64,000 nt of DNA from Candidatus Obscuribacter sp. (GTDB lineage Bacteria > Cyanobacteriota > Vampirovibrionia > Obscuribacterales > Obscuribacteraceae), in contig JADYXR010000033.1 in the NCBI GenBank assembly GCA_021772095.1, forward strand, positions 62,001 through 126,000, in the 5' to 3' direction. Of the stretch, positions 941 through 61,724 are shown one piece after another. Numbering within the stretch: the stretch's first letter is position 1; each line of letters opens with the position of its first letter. Under the pieces are notes generated by a model. The model did no database searches. It was not told the DNA's origin and saw only the letters and a program-made list of their open reading frames with translations. Made by a program: the position numbers and the translations under genes.

Positions 941-1294
941 AAAGGATGCAGACTAAACGCAGCATCACATAGCAATAGAAGACATCTATAAGAAGATGGT
1001 TGCGAGGTCGGCACGCGGTCAACCTGGCGCTGCCACTTATCCACGTTATGGCGAATTGCCAGCTCAGCGATGCCACTTGTCCGCGTCCATCGTGACATTG
1101 CGGAGTCAGCAATGCCAACCCGGCGCGCCGCTCCGAGCTGCCAGCTCGATCGTTTTGCAGCTCAAAGAAGTCAAGAAAGACGCCAAACCGCTGGTCGCGT
1201 TTGCAATGTTAACGCCGCCTAATTGCGTCAAAGCAGTTTTACCAACATTCTCGCCGCGAAAGTCCTAAAATGTGGAAACAGCGACGGCAGCAAA
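941..1294. other. Gene-free gap of 354 bp
   Basis: No convincing gene is present. The only structure seen is a pair of 19-bp imperfect direct repeats (listed separately) and a related third partial copy near 1108. A 90-codon ORF on the plus strand spans the repeats but has an Arg/Pro/Cys-rich composition unlike a protein. Confidence 0.5.
1027..1085. repeat. 19-bp direct repeat pair, 40 bp apart
   Basis: Two copies at 1027-1045 and 1067-1085 differ at 3 of 19 positions and share the core TGCCACTT. A looser third copy (AATGCCAACCCGGCG) follows near 1111. Purpose unknown; a protein-binding site or a degenerate minisatellite are both possible. Confidence 0.4.
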
Positions 1295-2314
1295 ATGAAC
1301 GACCCCTACACCGAAGACCACAACTACGCATCTGAACCCCCGACGCCCAGACCGCCATTGATGCTGGGATTTGGATTCTTGCCGCGGTTGCAGCATCCGA
1401 GCTGGACCGAGTTCGTGATTCTGTACCTGAAACGTTGCCCGAAGTATTATTTGAAACCGGCAATATTGCTGGCGGCAGGGCTGACCTTGCCGATTGTCAA
1501 TTACGCTATCCTGATCGCGTTTTACAAATCAAACGCGCAGCATCACACTTTCACCGGTCTGTTCGATATTTTTATGATGTTCGGACCGACGCTCATCGGC
1601 ATGCTGATTTGCACGGTCGTTTGTCTTATGACATTGTTCTGGGGATTGGCTTCCATTCTGGTCGCTCTGACCGCGACTTGCCGCAGTTTTTTGATAATTG
1701 ATCCGCAGCATTTTCGTCAGGATCCGGCGGCTTTAGATCGTGCAATTGACACGGCGCAAGACGAAGGCGCGAATTTATTTCGGCATAGAAAAGCGTACCT
1801 CGCTACCGTATGGCTGATGTACTCAGTGTTTATGCTGCTTCCCTCATTTGTCATGTGTGCGTCGGGAGCGATGGTACTGCTCGGGATGCCGCAGATTGGC
1901 GCGTATACGATGCTACCGACTCGAATCGATCTACCGCTAGAAACGATGCTTGGCTCAGCAATTGCGCTTGGTGTCTCGATTATCGTGTTGAGTAACTACG
2001 CGTTAATTCTCATGCCGTACTCCGCAATCACAGAACATGGCGGAGTCAAAGCAGCAGCTAAAGCTCTGCTCCTGTCACTCAAAATCTTACCGGCGATTTC
2101 AATTTATTCTGTAATATTCTTTGTGATATCGAGTTTTTTATCGTCGCCGATAGATCTTCTGCTACTCTACAATCAAGAAATCGCGAATTCGACAATCGCG
2201 CAAGTGCTTTGCTTATTACTGAAAGCAATATGGCACGTCGCATTTTTCGTTTATCTCGCTCCGATGTCATTGCTTATTCCATGCGAAATGATTCGTGGCA
2301 ACACCGACAACTAG
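1295..2314 (+). CDS. Multi-pass membrane protein of unknown function
   Basis: The protein has 339 residues. After a soluble, Pro-rich N-terminus of about 50 residues there are about six hydrophobic segments, including ILLAAGLTLPIVNYAILIAF, a Gly/Met-rich one near residue 100, and pairs near 180-200 and 235-255. No enzyme motif is visible. The layout, with long polar loops between helix pairs, resembles uncharacterised inner-membrane proteins of the DUF4013/YciC kind, but I cannot assign a family. I place the start at the ATG 1295 (MNDPYTED); the frame is open further upstream to 1223, but that part reads through the non-coding gap. It precedes the CobT-like gene on the same strand by 43 bp. 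Confidence 0.65.
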   Translation: MNDPYTEDHNYASEPPTPRPPLMLGFGFLPRLQHPSWTEFVILYLKRCPKYYLKPAILLAAGLTLPIVNYAILIAFYKSNAQHHTFTGLFDIFMMFGPTLIGMLICTVVCLMTLFWGLASILVALTATCRSFLIIDPQHFRQDPAALDRAIDTAQDEGANLFRHRKAYLATVWLMYSVFMLLPSFVMCASGAMVLLGMPQIGAYTMLPTRIDLPLETMLGSAIALGVSIIVLSNYALILMPYSAITEHGGVKAAAKALLLSLKILPAISIYSVIFFVISSFLSSPIDLLLLYNQEIANSTIAQVLCLLLKAIWHVAFFVYLAPMSLLIPCEMIRGNTDN

Positions 2315-2357
2315 GCATCACATTTAATCCGCTCGTTGCTACAAGGTGAAAACAACA

Positions 2358-3545
2358 ATGCCGTTTTCAATCATAAATAATCCAGGCGGCAAAATGGATC
2401 GAATTCTGAGTCGTGCAAGAACGGCTCAGTCACCGCGTTTTGTTCTCTGTGTGGGTGGGACGAAAACGAGTGATGTCGACGGACTTTCCGGCGCCGGTGC
2501 AACGCCTGAAGACAGAAGGATGACTCCGCGATGCGATGCGGAAGCATTGATTAATGGTATCGCGGGCAAGACCAGCCAATTGCCTGTCTCACCTGAGGGG
2601 ATAGTATCGCCTGTGGTGATCACTGTTGCTTGCCTTAAACTTTTGAATATACCGGTGACCATTGTGGACTGCGGTACTTTCGCCGGTCCGCGAGTAGGCG
2701 AACGAATTAAAATCGGAACACCACCGGCGGATTGTTTGTCCAGCGGTTCCGCGCAAGAACTGGACAACGTGAAAAGACTGTTTAAAAACGGCTGTGAACT
2801 GGGAGCCAAGTTAACGCAGGACTCTGATTTAGTTATAATTGCAGAGTGCGTTCCAGCAGGCACGAGCACTGCATTCGCCGTTCTATCAGCGCTCGGCTAT
2901 GACGTGCATAATGCAGTCTCCAGCAGCATGCCGAACTTGAATCACCAGATGCGGTGGCAACTGGCAGCGACAGGTTTGACTAAAGCCGGATTGATTACTT
3001 CAATCACACCCGGTGATCCCGAAGCTACTCAAAGCAAAGTGGGTCAGCCGTTGAACGTAGTGGCAGCGGTAGGCGACCCGATGCAACCATTCGCCGCGGG
3101 GTTGGCTCTGGCTGCCAGCCATAAGGCCACCGTGATTCTTGGCGGCGGCAGTCAAATGCTGGCTGTTTATTCCCTGGCAAAAGCTTGCACCAGATACGGT
3201 GTCTTCGATATCGAAGACGCGAAAATAAACATTGGTGCCAACTCGGATGTTTCCAACATTGGAGTGATAACGACATCCTGGGTGGCGCACGATAAGAACG
3301 CAAAAGTTTCCGACATCAGCAAAACGGTGGATGCGCCATTTGGGTGCTCAATGCTCGACTTCAGCCTGTCGAGCCACCCCGGACTGAGGGCGTACGAAGA
3401 TGGTCACGTCAAAGAAGGAGTCGGGGCAGGCGCTTCGATCGTGCTCACTCATCTTCTCAAGAACTACTCCGCAGAACAATTAATCGCCGCGATTGACGAA
3501 ACGTATTCGCAGATGGCACTCGGGGAAACAGCAACGGGCTGTTAA
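2358..3545 (+). CDS. CobT-like nicotinate-nucleotide phosphoribosyltransferase (UPF0284 type)
   Basis: This 395-residue protein resembles the UPF0284 family of cyanobacteria and archaea, a distant relative of CobT. CobT activates the lower-ligand base of cobalamin with nicotinate mononucleotide. Features seen are an N-terminal VLCVGGTKTSDVDGLSGAG stretch, the glycine-rich ECVPAGTSTAFAVLSALGY motif near residue 170, a GDPMQPFAAGLALAAS segment and an ILGGGSQM motif. I prefer the ATG at 2358 because an AAGG element lies 11 bases before it; a GTG at 2346 is possible. No other cobalamin gene is nearby, so the cell may salvage corrinoids. The substrate is inferred from family naming only. Confidence 0.75.
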   Translation: MPFSIINNPGGKMDRILSRARTAQSPRFVLCVGGTKTSDVDGLSGAGATPEDRRMTPRCDAEALINGIAGKTSQLPVSPEGIVSPVVITVACLKLLNIPVTIVDCGTFAGPRVGERIKIGTPPADCLSSGSAQELDNVKRLFKNGCELGAKLTQDSDLVIIAECVPAGTSTAFAVLSALGYDVHNAVSSSMPNLNHQMRWQLAATGLTKAGLITSITPGDPEATQSKVGQPLNVVAAVGDPMQPFAAGLALAASHKATVILGGGSQMLAVYSLAKACTRYGVFDIEDAKINIGANSDVSNIGVITTSWVAHDKNAKVSDISKTVDAPFGCSMLDFSLSSHPGLRAYEDGHVKEGVGAGASIVLTHLLKNYSAEQLIAAIDETYSQMALGETATGC

Positions 3546-3553
3546 CATCGGGT

Positions 3554-3612
3554 TTTCGCAACGGGCTGTTTCGCAACATGCTGTTTCACGCAGCCAGTTT
3601 CGCAACGGCTAT
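3554..3612. repeat. 15-bp tandem repeat, 4 units
   Basis: Four head-to-tail units of 14-15 bp follow the CobT-like stop codon: TTTCGCAACGGGCTG, TTTCGCAACATGCTG, a degraded third, and TTTCGCAACGGCTAT. The core GCAACGGGCTGTT also occurs at 3531-3543 across the end of the gene. This suggests the array grew from the gene's last codons. Confidence 0.6.
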
Positions 3613-3749
3613 TTTCACGGACAAATGCACCAGCTGTTCAAAACGCGCTCGCTCTAAACAACGTCGAAGCGTCCATTTAGCACCGCGTGAAAGTTTTGTG
3701 TCGGCATTTCCGCGAAGCCAGTGCTTTCAGCTCGTCGAATTCTGAGACC

Positions 3750-5219
3750 CTAAGTAAGTTCAGCAGTACTCGCGTGAACCGTATTGCGCCCTTCTTCTTT
3801 CGCTTTCAGTAGTGCCAGTTTCGCATCGCGCAAAATCGTTTCCGGATTGAGGTCTTCCATATTGAAGCTTGCGCATCCGACACTGACTGTCACTTTCGGT
3901 CCGCGTTTGCCATGACCGAATGACCATTGTTCGATATCAGATCTCACTTTTTCGCCTAACGTTTTCGCGCCGGCACCATCGGTATTCGGCAACACAATTG
4001 CGAATTCATCGCCACCATATCGTGCCACCAGATCACTCGAACGAGTCGTAGTCAGCAAACGATTAGCGATACCGCTAAGAATTGAATCGCCCATTTCATG
4101 ACCGTGCTCTTCGTTGATTCTACCGAGTTCATCGACATCAACGATGGCGAGCCCGACGGGAAGCCGTTGTCGGAACGAGAATAATAATTGCTGCTGCAAA
4201 AATCCGACCAGGAATTCTAGATTGTATAGACCCGTCAGTGAATCAACGTTGGCATTGTAAGCCTCGCGACTTTGCAGACTTTCGATTTCTTGACGCGCCA
4301 GAAGAAGTTTAAAAACAGGTTGAATACTGATTTGCAATTGTTCGATGAATGCTTTGGCAGTCGGGTCGATTGCCTTTTTTTCATACGATCCAAAAAAGAT
4401 AGCGCCAATTCCGCCGACCGGCAAAATATCAAAATCTTCCAGCGCCTTACCGTCCTCGGTAACCTCTAGACGCGGGTCGATATGCGGTTCTGATGTAATC
4501 GACATTTTTGCAAGAATTTCAGTCAACAAGCGCTCGTATGACTTCGACAAAATCGGAGAATTTGATTTAATCGAAATCCAGGGATTGCTCTTGTCTACAA
4601 CCACAACGCCGAGCACATCACCGTGGAAAAGATCGCCTACCATTTGATAGTACGCGTCGAGAAATTGTCGGCGCGGTTCAACAGCATCACTGAGGCTGCG
4701 GACGATTCTGGCAATCACACGTTCCAACAACAGAACATCGAGCAGGCTGCCATAGCTTTGCATGGCGGATTTGGAATCCAACTTCTTATCAGTTGGTAAC
4801 AAACCCTTAGATTTTTCGACACTCCATTCACGAGCTTTCCCTTTTTCAAGGCACCTGTCAAGAAGCTCATGTACAGGCGTGATGCCGTCGGCGAGGTCAT
4901 CGAATTTGACGATCTCGTCGGCATAAGATGCCTTTCTCCAAAACTCCGTATCGTCGCCTTCGTTCAACTTGACAAGGACGAATGGCAGGCCGGCAGTGCG
5001 ATCGTTTGATTTGATCAGCGCGCTCAGTTGATATCCGGAAATGTCAGGCAGCGAAGTTTCGGCAACGATGATGTCAGCGCCGTTATTGTTGAGCTCGTCA
5101 AGCGCATCAAAGCCATGACTTACAACTTTGTGCTGGAAGCCTTTGCTGTGCAAATTATTGGCATCGAGCCAGCCGGCATCAGGTGAGTTGACAACAAAGA
5201 TAACCTTGGAATCCGCCAT
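3750..5219 (-). CDS. Diguanylate cyclase with degenerate receiver domain
   Basis: A 489-residue cytosolic protein. Residues 1-125 fold as a response-regulator receiver by pattern, but the phospho-acceptor Asp is Glu54 (VAETSLPDISG) and the N-terminal acidic pair is missing (VVNSPDAG). It therefore cannot be phosphorylated in the usual way. The middle part (about 160-310) looks like a GAF-type or linker module. Residues 325-485 are a GGDEF domain with an intact GGDEF active-site motif and an RSSD inhibitory site exactly five residues before it, so the enzyme should make cyclic di-GMP and be inhibited by it. It is transcribed alone, away from both neighbours. Confidence 0.88.
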   Translation of the reverse strand: MADSKVIFVVNSPDAGWLDANNLHSKGFQHKVVSHGFDALDELNNNGADIIVAETSLPDISGYQLSALIKSNDRTAGLPFVLVKLNEGDDTEFWRKASYADEIVKFDDLADGITPVHELLDRCLEKGKAREWSVEKSKGLLPTDKKLDSKSAMQSYGSLLDVLLLERVIARIVRSLSDAVEPRRQFLDAYYQMVGDLFHGDVLGVVVVDKSNPWISIKSNSPILSKSYERLLTEILAKMSITSEPHIDPRLEVTEDGKALEDFDILPVGGIGAIFFGSYEKKAIDPTAKAFIEQLQISIQPVFKLLLARQEIESLQSREAYNANVDSLTGLYNLEFLVGFLQQQLLFSFRQRLPVGLAIVDVDELGRINEEHGHEMGDSILSGIANRLLTTTRSSDLVARYGGDEFAIVLPNTDGAGAKTLGEKVRSDIEQWSFGHGKRGPKVTVSVGCASFNMEDLNPETILRDAKLALLKAKEEGRNTVHASTAELT

Positions 5220-56318: not shown

Positions 56319-58529
56319 CTAGTCGTCGTCGCGTTCTTTCTCTTCGTAGCCTTTATCAACTTTCTCGTCGACGATGTCGTCGTAGTATTTTTTCGCCGCA
56401 TCTTTGTTGGTAAACGACTTGGATTTCTCTTGTCCGTTAGTTCCAATGCGCCCGTATTTGACTGTTACTTCGCAGCCCACCATCGCGATTGACCAGAACT
56501 TGCTCGAAGAACCTTCGATGAATTCAAAATAGCGAAAGTCAGGAACACCCGTCGAAGCTTTGCTTCTGGCACCCGCTGCCGACTTACTGTTTTTCGGTGG
56601 AGTTGCTGTAGATTTCTTTTGCGGTATGGTTTGCACTTTTCCGCTAGCAGAGGCACTCGCCACCTTTGCCCCGACGAGATCCGGGCGGCACGATGAGCAA
56701 TAGCAAAAAACTGTTCCCTTAGGCGGATGCCTGTAGGTTGCCGCTAGATTGACGTAGTCCTCGAAAGGACGATTCTCATCATCGTCGTCGACAGTGTCAT
56801 CATCTTCGGCATCGTCGTCGTCCGCGTCTTCGTCATCTTCATCGTCAGCCTCATCCTCCTCGGAAGGAACAGTCGATCTCGCGCTTTCGAATTTTAGAAT
56901 ATCAGGGTCAGACCGGTCACCTTCGGCCTCAGAGATTTGCTCCCCGGGATTGACGCCAGAGTCCTTACCCGGAGCACTGTTTCCATCGCTATGTTCGCCG
57001 CAGAAACCAGCTTTTTCAATGTATCCTTTGTCGGTTTTCTCACCAACAATTTCGTTGTAGTACTTGTTCGCTTCGGCTTCGTCGTTGAAACTCTTGACCT
57101 TCTCTTGTCCTTTCGATCCAATTTTGCCGTACTTAACAGTGACATCACTGCCGGTGCGCCAGATCGACCAGAACTTACTCGAGGCATCATCTACGAACTC
57201 AAAATATCTAGGTTCTGAAACCTCATACGTCTTCGGTGGAGTCTCTCCTGAGGTTTCTGAAACATCAGCATTGGACTTACGGGAAATGCGCGGCGCAAAC
57301 GCCACCACATTTGATGTACGCGTTTCATCCACTTTTTGCTCGTCTCCGTTTGACAACGCAGTTGACTCACTATTAGCCGGCTCATCATCGAGGGTGGAAA
57401 CCTCCACGCTTGCGGCACCACCTGCGATATCACTCAACTTAGACGAATCCGGCAATTTATCGATATCCGTTCGCAATCTAACATACGAAGGAAAACGTGG
57501 AACGCCACCATCCGTCAGTTCTTGGAAGCGAAACGTGACGATACTGCCAACAGGCGGCGGACTCTCTCTTTGCTTATCCGAGAACCCAGTACCAATTGCA
57601 AATTTCGTTCCATCGTTCAGTTCAACACTCAAAGCACCCAATCGCCCTTTGTGTTTGCCAGTCCCCGGCAGGTGTTCAAGCACTCTTGCTTCAGCGTCAT
57701 GAAACGTTTTGACTTTCAACAGTGTGAACGACCGACCCGATTCGTACTTCGAATTCGGCTGCCGCAGCATCAGACCTTCGCCACCGCCTTCCTCGACGCG
57801 CTGCAATTCTTCGCGCAAATGTTCAGAACTTTTGCAACGCTCCTGCTCATGCGGTCTGGCATAACGTGGCTGCGCTTCATCCAGACACTGCTGCACAAAG
57901 GCAATGCGCGCTTCGAAAACATCGTTGACATGCGGCGCATCGAAGACCACAAACTTAACAGCTTCCCACTCTTTGCTCTTGTCCTGCCGCCTGACGATGC
58001 TCACGGTCTTTTGAAAGGCTTTCCGAGCGATCCACAACTCACCATCCAGATGAATGTCGGCAGGCAAATCCTCGACAAACCAGTCAGGCGCCATATATAC
58101 ATTGCCCTGGCGAGAAATAAACTGTTTGCCATCCCAGTAAGCCCGCACGCCGTCGAGCTTTTCACTCATCCACCAGCCGGTCAGATCGAGCGAATTGTCC
58201 CAGGAATGCGCCAGGAGAATGGGGGGCACGTTGGACGCAACCTCTTCGCCTGGCTGCCCATCCGAGCTGGCAGCCACCGCTTTGCGACGCGACACAGCCG
58301 GCTTCGCAGGCAATTCGCCGCCGAGCCTTTCGAGTTCTGCTGCTTCGCCCCGGTACTTCCGCAAGTGCTTACAGGTGCGCTGCTCGATTGGATGTGACTG
58401 CGTCCGCCATGCAGGACAACTGCAGGAATAGACGCCACCAAGATTTTTCAAAATATACGGGTCTTTAGCGGAACCCTGAATTTCAACCGACTCTCCGTCA
58501 TCGATATCAGGCATGTTTAACCTCAACAA
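56319..58529 (-). CDS. SWIM zinc finger-ATP-dependent DNA ligase-WGR-WGR protein
   Basis: A 736-residue fusion. Residues 33-56 form a SWIM finger (C36, C38, C53, H55). Residues 103-360 are an ATP-dependent DNA ligase core: motif I EKLDG with the AMP-accepting Lys124, motif III HLDGELW, motif IV EGLMLR, motif V LLKVKTF, and an OB-fold with GSIVTFRFQEL. Two WGR domains follow at 439-507 and 665-730 (VKYGKIGSKGQEKVKSF and VKYGRIGTNGQEKSKSF). Between them lie an acidic stretch (555-585) and C609, C611 and C614, a possible metal site. WGR domains occur in PARP and MolR and bind nucleic acid. It likely seals breaks in special DNA. The usual bacterial NAD-dependent ligase is not seen here. Confidence 0.85.
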   Translation of the reverse strand: MLRLNMPDIDDGESVEIQGSAKDPYILKNLGGVYSCSCPAWRTQSHPIEQRTCKHLRKYRGEAAELERLGGELPAKPAVSRRKAVAASSDGQPGEEVASNVPPILLAHSWDNSLDLTGWWMSEKLDGVRAYWDGKQFISRQGNVYMAPDWFVEDLPADIHLDGELWIARKAFQKTVSIVRRQDKSKEWEAVKFVVFDAPHVNDVFEARIAFVQQCLDEAQPRYARPHEQERCKSSEHLREELQRVEEGGGEGLMLRQPNSKYESGRSFTLLKVKTFHDAEARVLEHLPGTGKHKGRLGALSVELNDGTKFAIGTGFSDKQRESPPPVGSIVTFRFQELTDGGVPRFPSYVRLRTDIDKLPDSSKLSDIAGGAASVEVSTLDDEPANSESTALSNGDEQKVDETRTSNVVAFAPRISRKSNADVSETSGETPPKTYEVSEPRYFEFVDDASSKFWSIWRTGSDVTVKYGKIGSKGQEKVKSFNDEAEANKYYNEIVGEKTDKGYIEKAGFCGEHSDGNSAPGKDSGVNPGEQISEAEGDRSDPDILKFESARSTVPSEEDEADDEDDEDADDDDAEDDDTVDDDDENRPFEDYVNLAATYRHPPKGTVFCYCSSCRPDLVGAKVASASASGKVQTIPQKKSTATPPKNSKSAAGARSKASTGVPDFRYFEFIEGSSSKFWSIAMVGCEVTVKYGRIGTNGQEKSKSFTNKDAAKKYYDDIVDEKVDKGYEEKERDDD

Positions 58530-58628: not shown

Positions 58629-59504
58629 CTAAACAGTCAATCTGGAAACTGGACTCCAATCAGCAGGAACGCGTTCTAAAATTCCGCCTGAAAATACATC
58701 GTAAAGCCGCAATTCGTCCATGTGCACGTAGCCGATATGGCAACCACAGACGGCGTTTGAACAGGGCGACTCGCTGAGCGCAGACTCGAATTCTTCGTCG
58801 TAAATATTGCCAATTTTTTCGGAAATAAAATGACAACGTTTGATTTGTCCGTCACCGTCGACTGAGATAACTGACGAACCTGCGCGGCAAGCCTTTCCGA
58901 GACTTGGATGGTATTCATTGTTCATTGGAAACAAAGGATCGATTTTCGTCAGCAGTTCAATATCGGCATCCGTGTAATAAGACTCGATGCGTTTGTAAGC
59001 ATTAATCCAGAAGTAAACGCTGTCAGGCAGCTCATCGCGAAGCGCCAATATTTCGTCGAAGTGTTCTTTTAAACCAACGGCTCCGACACTAAATCGCACG
59101 CCTCTGGAAACCAGCTCAAGGCATTTGGCTAAAAACTTTTGCCTCGTAGTTTCCGTCGGGTGAAACGTCGCCCACAGCGCCAGTTTCGACTTATCACAAT
59201 TCTCAACCCACTCAAGTCGACAAGAAAGATTTGTTTGAATCGCGACCTTTTCGATGGTATCAGATTTGGTGAGCGTAGATATTGCGTCCTGGTATCGAGG
59301 TCGAATAAGCGCCTCTCCCCAGGGCGTAAACAAAACCGAGAGTTGATGCTGTTTTCGAGTGTTCGCCCAATCCACAAAACGCGACAATTGTTGCGTGTCT
59401 CTGGCATGCTCTTCGTCAGTTTCATGATGCTTCGCGAACGGACAATATTCGCAACCGTAATTACAACTGCTGAGTGGTCCACGGTAGATGATGGAAAGCC
59501 TCAT
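58629..59504 (-). CDS. Radical SAM protein, STM4011 family
   Basis: A 291-residue radical SAM enzyme. The cluster motif is CNYGCEYC (C14, C18, C21), followed by VLFTPWGEALIRP (a conserved Trp-Gly-Glu). The C-terminal part has further Cys residues (KACRAGSSVISVDGDGQIKR with CHFISEK, and CSNAVCGCH) like an auxiliary cluster domain. The family is named after a Salmonella locus; its product is unknown. It overlaps the STM4012-type gene by 4 bases, so the two act together. Family naming is from memory of NCBI annotation; the radical SAM assignment is direct. Confidence 0.8.
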   Translation of the reverse strand: MRLSIIYRGPLSSCNYGCEYCPFAKHHETDEEHARDTQQLSRFVDWANTRKQHQLSVLFTPWGEALIRPRYQDAISTLTKSDTIEKVAIQTNLSCRLEWVENCDKSKLALWATFHPTETTRQKFLAKCLELVSRGVRFSVGAVGLKEHFDEILALRDELPDSVYFWINAYKRIESYYTDADIELLTKIDPLFPMNNEYHPSLGKACRAGSSVISVDGDGQIKRCHFISEKIGNIYDEEFESALSESPCSNAVCGCHIGYVHMDELRLYDVFSGGILERVPADWSPVSRLTV

Positions 59505-60949
59505 AACGCCTCGTGTTGCGACATGAGCTTCAGGATATTCGGCGAATACATTTCATATCCAATTCGATCAGACCATTCCAATCCAGAACTCGTCAATCGC
59601 ATTCGACCTTCTGTTATTTCCAGCAGTCCGAGTTCCACGAATTCGGAAAGTTCAGAACCAAAGTCCACCCGAGCCGAGGATTGGAAGCGCCTCTCGTACT
59701 CCGCGAATGAAAGGCCTTCCATTTGCAAAAGCGATTGGATAAGAAACCGCCGTTTTTGATCGTCATCAGATAAACGAATTCCGTAGTCAGCAAAACCGAA
59801 TGCTTCAGTTTCGCAATCGATAAAATTTTGCAAGATCTCCCGGACCGGCTTCTGTCCGACCGCGTAACGCATCGAGTAGTGCACCGATGATGTATAGGAT
59901 CGAGCACCGCAACCGAGCCCAACCATGCCATCTTCCTGACAGCTGTAAGCCGGTCTTCCCGGAGTCGCGTCGCCGCTTTGAAATTCATCGCGGCTCAGCT
60001 CATCGCTTCTAAAACGATTTAAAACATCAGCGCCACTGCTCGCCGTATCCGCCGTATCCGCGCGTTCGAACATTCTCATCGATACTTGCTGGTATCCCGC
60101 TTCGCTCAATTCCTTTTGGGCCTGGCGGTAAAGCTCAAGGCGAATGTCACTATCCGTGGTGCCCATCTTTTCCAGCCCGGTCAGCGGACGAACATATAGC
60201 GGATACAAATAAATTTGTTTCGGACTATAATCTAACGTTCGATTTAACGAATAACTCCAGGATTCCGCTGTCTGTCCCGGTAATCCGTACATCAAGTCGA
60301 TGTTCAAAATTTTGAATCGGAAAGAATTGACAAGGTCCAACGCTCTTTCCACTTCAACATTTTTTTGCGAACGGCCCACAGCCATTACTTCGGCTTCAAC
60401 AAAACTCTGCACGCCAATGCTGACACGCTCGATTCCGCGTTCCTTGAGAATAGCTAGTTTGGCTGCTTCCGACGTCAACGGTGAAGTCTCGACTGAAGTT
60501 GGAACATTGCGCGGATCGATTCCAAAAACTCGATGCACCATGTCGAAAAGATTTTCCAGATCCTGAGGATCGAGATAAGTCGGTGTGCCGCCACCAAGCG
60601 CCATCCTCGCGAACTTAGCGTCACCCAGCGCTGCGCGCACCCGCTCCGCCTGGCGCTCGAGAGCAGTAAGATATTCCTGCTCGAAGGAAACTTCCGGGTT
60701 CGATGTCGTGAACAAATTACAAAAGCCGCAGCGCATTTCGCAAAAGGGGATGTGCACATATAAGAACAAAGCGTCGCGTTTTTCTTGTGCCCAAATGTTT
60801 TTCAACTCGACGGGCTGGGCGAATTCACGATAAGCGGTCTTGTGCGGATACGAATACGAATAGGCCTGGTATCGAACAGCGTCCGACTCATTCAACCAAT
60901 TTGAAATTTTTTGAGCACTACCGACAGTGCCACCAGTTTCAATCATCAT
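59501..60949 (-). CDS. HemN-like radical SAM protein, STM4012 family
   Basis: A 482-residue protein related to coproporphyrinogen oxidase HemN. Motif C70-x3-C74-x2-C77 (FCEMRCGFCNLF) binds the cluster. GGGTPTYLD, RVSIGVQSF and NIDLMYGLPGQT follow the HemN order. The C-terminal 150 residues (VGLGCGARSYTSSVHYSMR and a winged-helix-like end) also follow the HemN pattern. Unlike HemN, the region after CGFC is NLFTTSNP. It heads a two-gene unit with STM4011-type. The Salmonella locus also has STM4013 (hydrolase) and STM4014 (ATP-grasp-like), which are not in this window. It is not a plain heme enzyme by context. Confidence 0.8.
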   Translation of the reverse strand: MMIETGGTVGSAQKISNWLNESDAVRYQAYSYSYPHKTAYREFAQPVELKNIWAQEKRDALFLYVHIPFCEMRCGFCNLFTTSNPEVSFEQEYLTALERQAERVRAALGDAKFARMALGGGTPTYLDPQDLENLFDMVHRVFGIDPRNVPTSVETSPLTSEAAKLAILKERGIERVSIGVQSFVEAEVMAVGRSQKNVEVERALDLVNSFRFKILNIDLMYGLPGQTAESWSYSLNRTLDYSPKQIYLYPLYVRPLTGLEKMGTTDSDIRLELYRQAQKELSEAGYQQVSMRMFERADTADTASSGADVLNRFRSDELSRDEFQSGDATPGRPAYSCQEDGMVGLGCGARSYTSSVHYSMRYAVGQKPVREILQNFIDCETEAFGFADYGIRLSDDDQKRRFLIQSLLQMEGLSFAEYERRFQSSARVDFGSELSEFVELGLLEITEGRMRLTSSGLEWSDRIGYEMYSPNILKLMSQHEAL

Positions 60950-61252
60950 TTACAGAAAACCGAGTCAGGCGCGATGAGAAGTTCACTGCGCTGAGATTCT
61001 ACGCCGAAGCGGATCTTAACATGCCCTTGCACACGGAAAAAGTGTCAGTCGCACTACGCGCTAGGACTGCCGCGTTATCGGAGCAAGGGAGGAATGATCG
61101 ACCCCACCCAGAGCGCTGAGAGCATATTGCCCATCGTCGCCTGAGGGTGCAATCTCGACCTTCATGAGAGCGCTGACTGGCTATGCCCATATTTTCCTAA
61201 GCTGGTGCAATCTCGCCCTCGTCAGAGCGCGAGGGCTATTGCCCGTGGTTGC
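60950..61252. other. Intergenic gap of 303 bp
   Basis: The left part holds the upstream region of the STM4012-type gene. The right part is two and a half units of the 57-bp tandem array. No gene is seen. Confidence 0.5.
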
Positions 61253-61270
61253 CTAAGCTGGCCCGATCTC
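61100..61270 (-). repeat. 56-58-bp tandem repeat, three units, starting inside a gene end
   Basis: On the minus strand three units read 61270-61215, 61214-61157 and 61156-61100. Each begins GAGAT(T/C)G(C/G), continues with CCAGCTTAGG or a variant, has a GGGCAATAGCC-like self-complementary centre and ends with GCGCTCT plus a short GA-rich piece. The first unit contains the last five codons and stop (TAG) of the broken gene; the second copies that stop. Confidence 0.75.
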
Positions 61271-61696
61271 GGCTGGTTCAAACATACATGAAGCGTGTCC
61301 GAGCACTCTGGCGCCATCGACGAGTTCGGAAACTTGCGGCTGCCAGCCCTGACTGAGATGCCACTGCAGAAGTTCATCTGCTGACGGCTTGTAGTCTTTG
61401 ACGGCGACCGCCGACAAATTGCCTACTCAGGTCACGCCTAGAATCAGGTACAGTTTTTCACCTGGAAACGGCAAAATTATGTCGAGTGTGAATTCGTCCT
61501 GCGACACGATATCCATCTCGCCAATCGAGAATCGAAGCGAAGTTAGAAACCGGAAAGCATTGTCCAGGTTATTACACCGAGCTAACCCGCTTAACTCCGG
61601 ATGCGCTTTACCAATTTCTTTAACGTATTCTTCGAACTTCACTTTCACACTAATTTTAGTCAGATATCCATAAGACCACGTATTCAGAGCCAGCAC
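61253..61696 (-). pseudogene. Small hypothetical protein broken by an in-frame TGA
   Basis: Reading from GTG 61696, a frame runs 89 codons to a TGA at 61427-61429. Beyond it the same frame stays open for 57 more codons to a TAG at 61253-61255. The part after the TGA looks like protein (VKDYKPSADELLQWHLSQGW, then VSELVDGARVLGHASCMFEP). A single change from TGG (Trp) to TGA would explain it. Undisrupted it would be about 147 residues, helical at the start (VKFEEYVKEIGKAHPELSGL) and with strands later; no family is recognised. A sequencing error or true stop followed by relic coding DNA are the alternatives. It is divergent from the SDR gene by 28 bp. Confidence 0.6.
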
Positions 61697-61724
61697 AATC
61701 CCTCAAAAGTGTTATTTCCTGGCG

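Follow-up and report, generated by a model that had tools for sequence, protein, structure and literature searches.

The window, by which we denote the entire stretch of 64,000 nucleotides that was analyzed, is part of a 138-kb contig (C210) of a Candidatus Obscuribacter sp. assembly (G000). Near one end, it contains two overlapping genes for radical SAM enzymes followed by a ligase gene:

60950..61724: intergenic stretch of 775 bp upstream of STM4012, at the usual place of STM4013
59501..60949, minus strand: STM4012-family radical SAM protein (482 aa; NF006067, 576.9 bits, cut-off 380)
59501..59504, minus strand: ATGA stop/start overlap of STM4012 and STM4011, evident from coordinates and sequence and indicative of translational coupling
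58629..59504, minus strand: STM4011-family radical SAM protein (291 aa; NF038073, 406.6 bits, cut-off 200)
56319..58529, minus strand: gene for a SWIM-like, ATP-dependent DNA ligase and 2x WGR protein, directly downstream of STM4011

The families were assigned using NCBIfam profiles with curated cut-offs, and the result (rounded, 577 bits against 380 and 407 against 200) bears out the preliminary description, which had recognized both families and their order, along with the 4-base overlap of the two genes and the ligase-WGR gene as the next one downstream on the same strand. The STM4012 protein is HemN-like, with a HemN_C domain (domain profiles PF04055 and PF06969), and its radical SAM motif CX3CX2C consists of C70, C74 and C77. 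The nearest solved structures are HemN (1olt) and the methyltransferase NocN (9p2u), with both of which it shares the radical SAM core, the HemN_C domain being common with HemN. It differs, however, from HemN or HemW proper, an identity that the preliminary description had named among those that would count against it: the scores with the respective models, 166 bits (cut-off 325) and 155 bits (cut-off 205), are far under both cut-offs.

In the STM4011 protein, the radical SAM motif is formed by C14, C18 and C21, and five further cysteines, C206, C224, C248, C253 and C255, occupy invariant columns; the arrangement C206-X12-G219-X4-C224 fits the first half of the SPASM motif. The AlphaFold model of this protein (pLDDT 90.3) has its best matches in the PDB among the folds of anSME, MoaA and SkfB, and also EpeE. 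As noted in the preliminary description for STM4013 and STM4014, no homologs of these genes are present within the 64-kb window, and neither is STM4015; no remnants of the three were found in the 775 bp upstream of STM4012.

Partner genes and gene order

The five families, represented by the models NF038073, NF006067, NF038075, NF038074 and NF038076, make up the STM4011-STM4015 gene cluster. A profile search of the contigs of the same genome identified the three genes missing from the window side by side on contig C46 (4,367 bases; locus L101):

1035-1952, minus strand: STM4013 (373 bits, cut-off 250)
1912-3066, minus strand: STM4014 (377 bits, cut-off 175)
3232-4173, minus strand: STM4015 (337 bits, cut-off 275)

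The pair had been described as lacking its usual partners and as a reduced two-enzyme version of the pathway, and neither statement holds. All five families score above their cut-offs in this genome, and the STM4011-STM4015 system is complete, with one half of it in the window; it is split into 4012-4011 and 4015-4014-4013, on separate contigs and not in one operon; the contiguous cluster, which is usual but not obligatory, is absent. The split looks real because STM4012, at 121.5-122.9 kb of C210, lies 15 kb inside the 138-kb contig, and because two genes located upstream in the congener G002 (L103 11202-12331) are also found, syntenically, upstream of STM4012 here; an assembly artefact was rejected on these grounds. 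C46 is a short contig of a MAG, with a GC content of 46.0% compared to 49.7% for the window, and its assignment to this genome relies on phylogeny. In the trees of STM4012 and STM4015, the three congeners form a group (97 and 99% SH-aLRT, respectively), and STM4014 groups with that of G002 at 99% support. Given that the STM4014 and STM4015 copies are placed with those of genus members, C46 belongs to the genus, and contamination was dismissed as its source.

Among 99 relatives, STM4012 is above the cut-off in only four, namely, the present genome, its congeners G001 and G002, and G013, a sister member of the family that belongs to another genus, and all four encode all five genes. In a set of 386 genomes from the phylum, the same five, representing three genera, have both STM4011 and STM4013 above the cut-offs. 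The layouts differ: in G013, the order 4015-4014-4013-4012-4011 is contiguous; in G002, four ORFs are located between 4013 and 4012; and in G001, 4015-4013-4012-4011 are found together and 4014 is on another contig. The latter STM4014 is only 40% identical to the copy on C46 and may be a replacement of the original one. Because homologs of two of the genes inserted in G002 remain upstream of STM4012 in the window, we infer an order of events in which a G002-like insertion preceded the full split, as the shared genes suggest.

In other lineages, 44 of the 46 loci analyzed contain all five genes, and the other two end at contig ends. These loci come from Actinomycetota, Pseudomonadota, Bacteroidota, Cyanobacteriota, Planctomycetota, Chloroflexota, Myxococcota and Lentisphaerota, along with a Lokiarchaeota MAG. 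Through the natural break-ups within the genus, all five genes were retained, which shows that they are linked functionally and not merely by position.

A HAD hydrolase gene is located between 4014 and 4013 in 15 loci, and in Salmonella, a Cof-type HAD gene follows 4011. In a Bacteroides finegoldii record (L169 7811-9754), STM4011 is fused to a HAD hydrolase, and only short ends of STM4013 and STM4012 are present. A Calothrix plasmid (L173 2014-3288) carries an STM4015 gene with the tail RYCSVAE and none of the four partners in the 9.3 kb read, a candidate for another dispersed case. Three genomes of the phylum (G271, G354 and G370) encode an STM4013-like protein scoring 155-163 bits, under the cut-off, in the absence of STM4011; these proteins appear to represent a sister hydrolase family. 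In unrelated phyla, a DUF6745 (LRR-like) gene and a gene of ~100 aa adjoin the STM4011-4015 cluster and possibly constitute an accessory pair of the system:

L171 11073-12394
L172 4602-5927
L174 11044-12353
L176 4213-5677
L178 11011-12308
L180 4053-5675
L105 6456-7950
L021 12301-13647
L013 12345-13622

An upstream gene that recurred in Streptomyces loci was discarded; it looked like wrong-frame ORFs.

The C-terminal tail of STM4015

Each STM4015 ORF was read to its stop codon, and 78 of the 80 end with a free C-terminal Glu (59 of 61 in the first set and all 19 in a fresh sample drawn from plasmid records, Salmonella included). Of the two that do not, one lies on a poor 4.9-kb contig (L048) and the other is a second copy of the gene in the genome G209. 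The commonest end is an acidic linker followed by R-[YF]-x-x-V-x-E-stop, and STM4015 of the window genome ends with ...DDEIWRFVQVSE. In the tails of Salmonella (MNAMYTE) and Bacteroides (YYPMITE), the Glu is kept and the Arg is missing. The last residue varies least, and only this Glu is invariant, with Tyr, Phe, Ser and Met alternating at or near position -6. Clusters often include two STM4015 genes, with the tail on both. One locus (L094 1219-1785, in G001:C103) encodes a 128-aa C-terminal STM4015 fragment with the tail YRSVSVSE, adjoining a gene of ~100 aa; it could be a truncated remnant or a small second copy.

The terminal Glu is encoded by both of its codons, followed by any of the three stop codons, and the gap to STM4014 ranges from an overlap to more than 1 kb, so the constraint acts on the protein. 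Conservation of this stretch as a ribosome-binding site of STM4014 was rejected because the tail persists when STM4014 is far off or absent next door. The strict C-terminal motif R[YFW]xx[VIL]xE was found in 55 of the 11,795 ORFs of the first loci, of which 54 scored as STM4015 and the 55th is an STM4015 end cut by the end of the locus. The tail is absent from two further LRR proteins encoded in these genomes, and in four genomes searched for other tail-bearing proteins, the counts of the DNA pattern were at the level of the reversed-pattern control. A further match to the tail, in L146, was set aside as not an ORF of the STM4015 kind.

In the open-access literature searched, we found no earlier report of this tail and, on the STM401x genes, only passing mentions and no function; to that extent, the statement that the product is not known stands. 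The families are already named in NCBIfam, and what is new here is the STM4015 tail and how the system may work. The earlier interest in a reduced pair falls, but the locus keeps its value as an entry to an orphan system, which the tail renders testable.

A candidate pathway on a proposed carrier protein

The AlphaFold model of STM4014 (pLDDT 91.4), in which the ATP-grasp E-x-N is invariant, has its best structural matches in PsnB, RimK, ArgX-LysW and LysX, with moderate TM-scores to any one solved enzyme (0.5-0.55 over the query) that do not fix the sub-class. The fold predicted for STM4014 is that of ATP-grasp ligases whose targets are the C-termini of proteins or the side chains of peptides. 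STM4013 has a sulfatase fold with an invariant Thr at the position of the formylglycine Cys and a His in place of Arg, that is, F-T-x-x-x-H instead of the sulfatase C-x-P-x-R, and the motif C/S-x-P/A-x-R is absent. The replacement of the formylglycine Cys by Thr indicates phosphoester chemistry and disfavors a sulfatase-maturase pair.

From the co-inheritance of the five genes, the invariant C-terminal Glu and the predicted folds, we infer all of the chemistry proposed below. Probably, one protein of the system carries what the enzymes modify. In the reading that we favor and to which we give about an even chance, this protein is STM4015, serving as carrier or substrate; STM4014 would work on the Glu at its C-terminus, and the two radical SAM enzymes would alter this end. 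STM4015 is a leucine-rich-repeat protein and would be made ribosomally; its globular domain would be recognized, and the chemistry would take place on the C-terminal tail with the free Glu. The ATP-grasp enzyme STM4014 would activate the Glu carboxylate and either join it to an amine or make an intramolecular bond; the SPASM-like STM4011 and the HemN-like STM4012 would next make changes to either the tail or the group attached to it, and the sulfatase-fold hydrolase STM4013, together with the often-present HAD phosphatase, might handle phosphoester steps. A product-releasing protease is not part of the cluster.

Such a pathway would follow the logic of amino-group carrier proteins (LysW/LysX), or else that of a RiPP whose leader is folded. 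LysX acts on LysW, where attachment takes place at the C-terminal Glu of EDWGE (PMC10433800); RimK extends the C-terminus of a protein with Glu (PMC4741518); and the pearlins set a precedent for building on the C-terminus of a carrier with a radical SAM enzyme (PMC9303977). Similarly to LysW with LysX or ArgX, STM4015 is a separate protein with an acidic C-terminal stretch ending in Glu, and its partner STM4014 has the predicted LysX/RimK ATP-grasp fold. In contrast to LysW, a small Zn protein, STM4015 has an LRR domain, with neither a Zn fold nor EDWGE but a RYVAVSE-like tail (R[YF]xxVxE), and the STM system adds two radical SAM enzymes and lacks amino acid pathway genes. STM4011-STM4015 range over Salmonella, Streptomyces, cyanobacteria and a Lokiarchaeota MAG and might represent a widespread and hitherto undescribed class of carrier- or precursor-protein pathways in which a folded LRR protein offers its C-terminal heptapeptide, with Glu as the last residue, for modification, a generalization that we consider just as likely to prove right as wrong; in this class, the modification would be built or fixed by the two radical SAM enzymes together with an ATP-grasp ligase and phosphoester hydrolases.

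The system could instead be a RiPP proper, with the R[YF]xxVxE tail as core peptide: STM4011 and STM4012 would cross-link or epimerize the side chains of the tail, STM4014 would perform the closure as in graspetides, and the product would then be released. STM4011 folds like SkfB, EpeE and anSME, STM4014 resembles the graspetide ligase PsnB, and the duplicated STM4015 genes are reminiscent of multiple precursors; as in SPASM RiPPs and graspetides (SkfB, EpeE, PsnB), the gene for a protein whose C-terminus is conserved is accompanied by those for a SPASM-like radical SAM protein and an ATP-grasp enzyme. However, the residues near position -6 swap and Glu alone is invariant, the "leader" would be a folded LRR protein of 300 aa and not a short peptide, and neither a protease nor an exporter is constant. 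When neighbors of 80 aa or more were clustered across the 46 loci, no short precursor peptide with a protease or exporter emerged as a constant neighbor. We regard this possibility as unlikely.

Quite unlikely, too, is a pathway in which the enzymes convert free metabolites into a small molecule and STM4015 is a scaffold on which the tail docks them. LRR proteins are common scaffolds, and the HAD phosphatase and the sulfatase-fold hydrolase suggest phosphorylated small intermediates. The tail could indeed be a docking or stability signal instead of a substrate, but a docking peptide does not need a free terminal Glu carboxylate, and it is precisely the last residue that varies least. Formylglycine formation on STM4013 by STM4011 acting as an anaerobic sulfatase maturase might be envisaged from the best PDB fold of STM4011, anSME, and the sulfatase fold of STM4013, but it would leave STM4012 and the STM4015 tail unexplained and was rejected on the active-site motif of STM4013, where the invariant Thr and His eliminate the maturation motif; we give it hardly any credence.

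The downstream ligase-WGR gene

The ligase-WGR protein, for which the likely start is an internal ATG (MPDIDDGES) at about 58514 that matches the relatives, combines an ATP-dependent ligase core with two WGR domains and a SWIM-like N-terminus (CxC...CKH, read from the sequence). In each of the three congeners, as in the Lokiarchaeota MAG, its gene comes after STM4011, and in nine other loci STM4015 has WGR domains fused to its N-terminus. Both observations could speak for a true reduced pathway of STM4012 and STM4011 in which the WGR ligase would be a new partner and act on nucleic acid. However, the other three genes are present in the same genome (unless C46 is a contaminant), four genomes of the family encode the ligase and have no STM4012 above the cut-off, and in G013 the ligase is on another contig than the cluster. 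Moreover, the Lokiarchaeota STM4012 branches beside this family, so the adjacencies in Lokiarchaeota and in the genus may be one event. Such a two-gene pathway is thus extremely improbable, and the distribution of the ligase in the four relatives and its separate site in G013 argue against a replacement partner. Away from the cluster, the neighbors of the ligase-WGR gene are SbcC/SbcD-like (G013) or fusA genes. Probably, it is a bystander kept by synteny, with some room for a looser link of WGR to the system, given the nine fusions. In the Lokiarchaeota MAG, the whole cluster is accompanied by a SWIM-ligase-WGR gene like that in the window (L021 13598-15115), which could reflect either transfer or a binning error.
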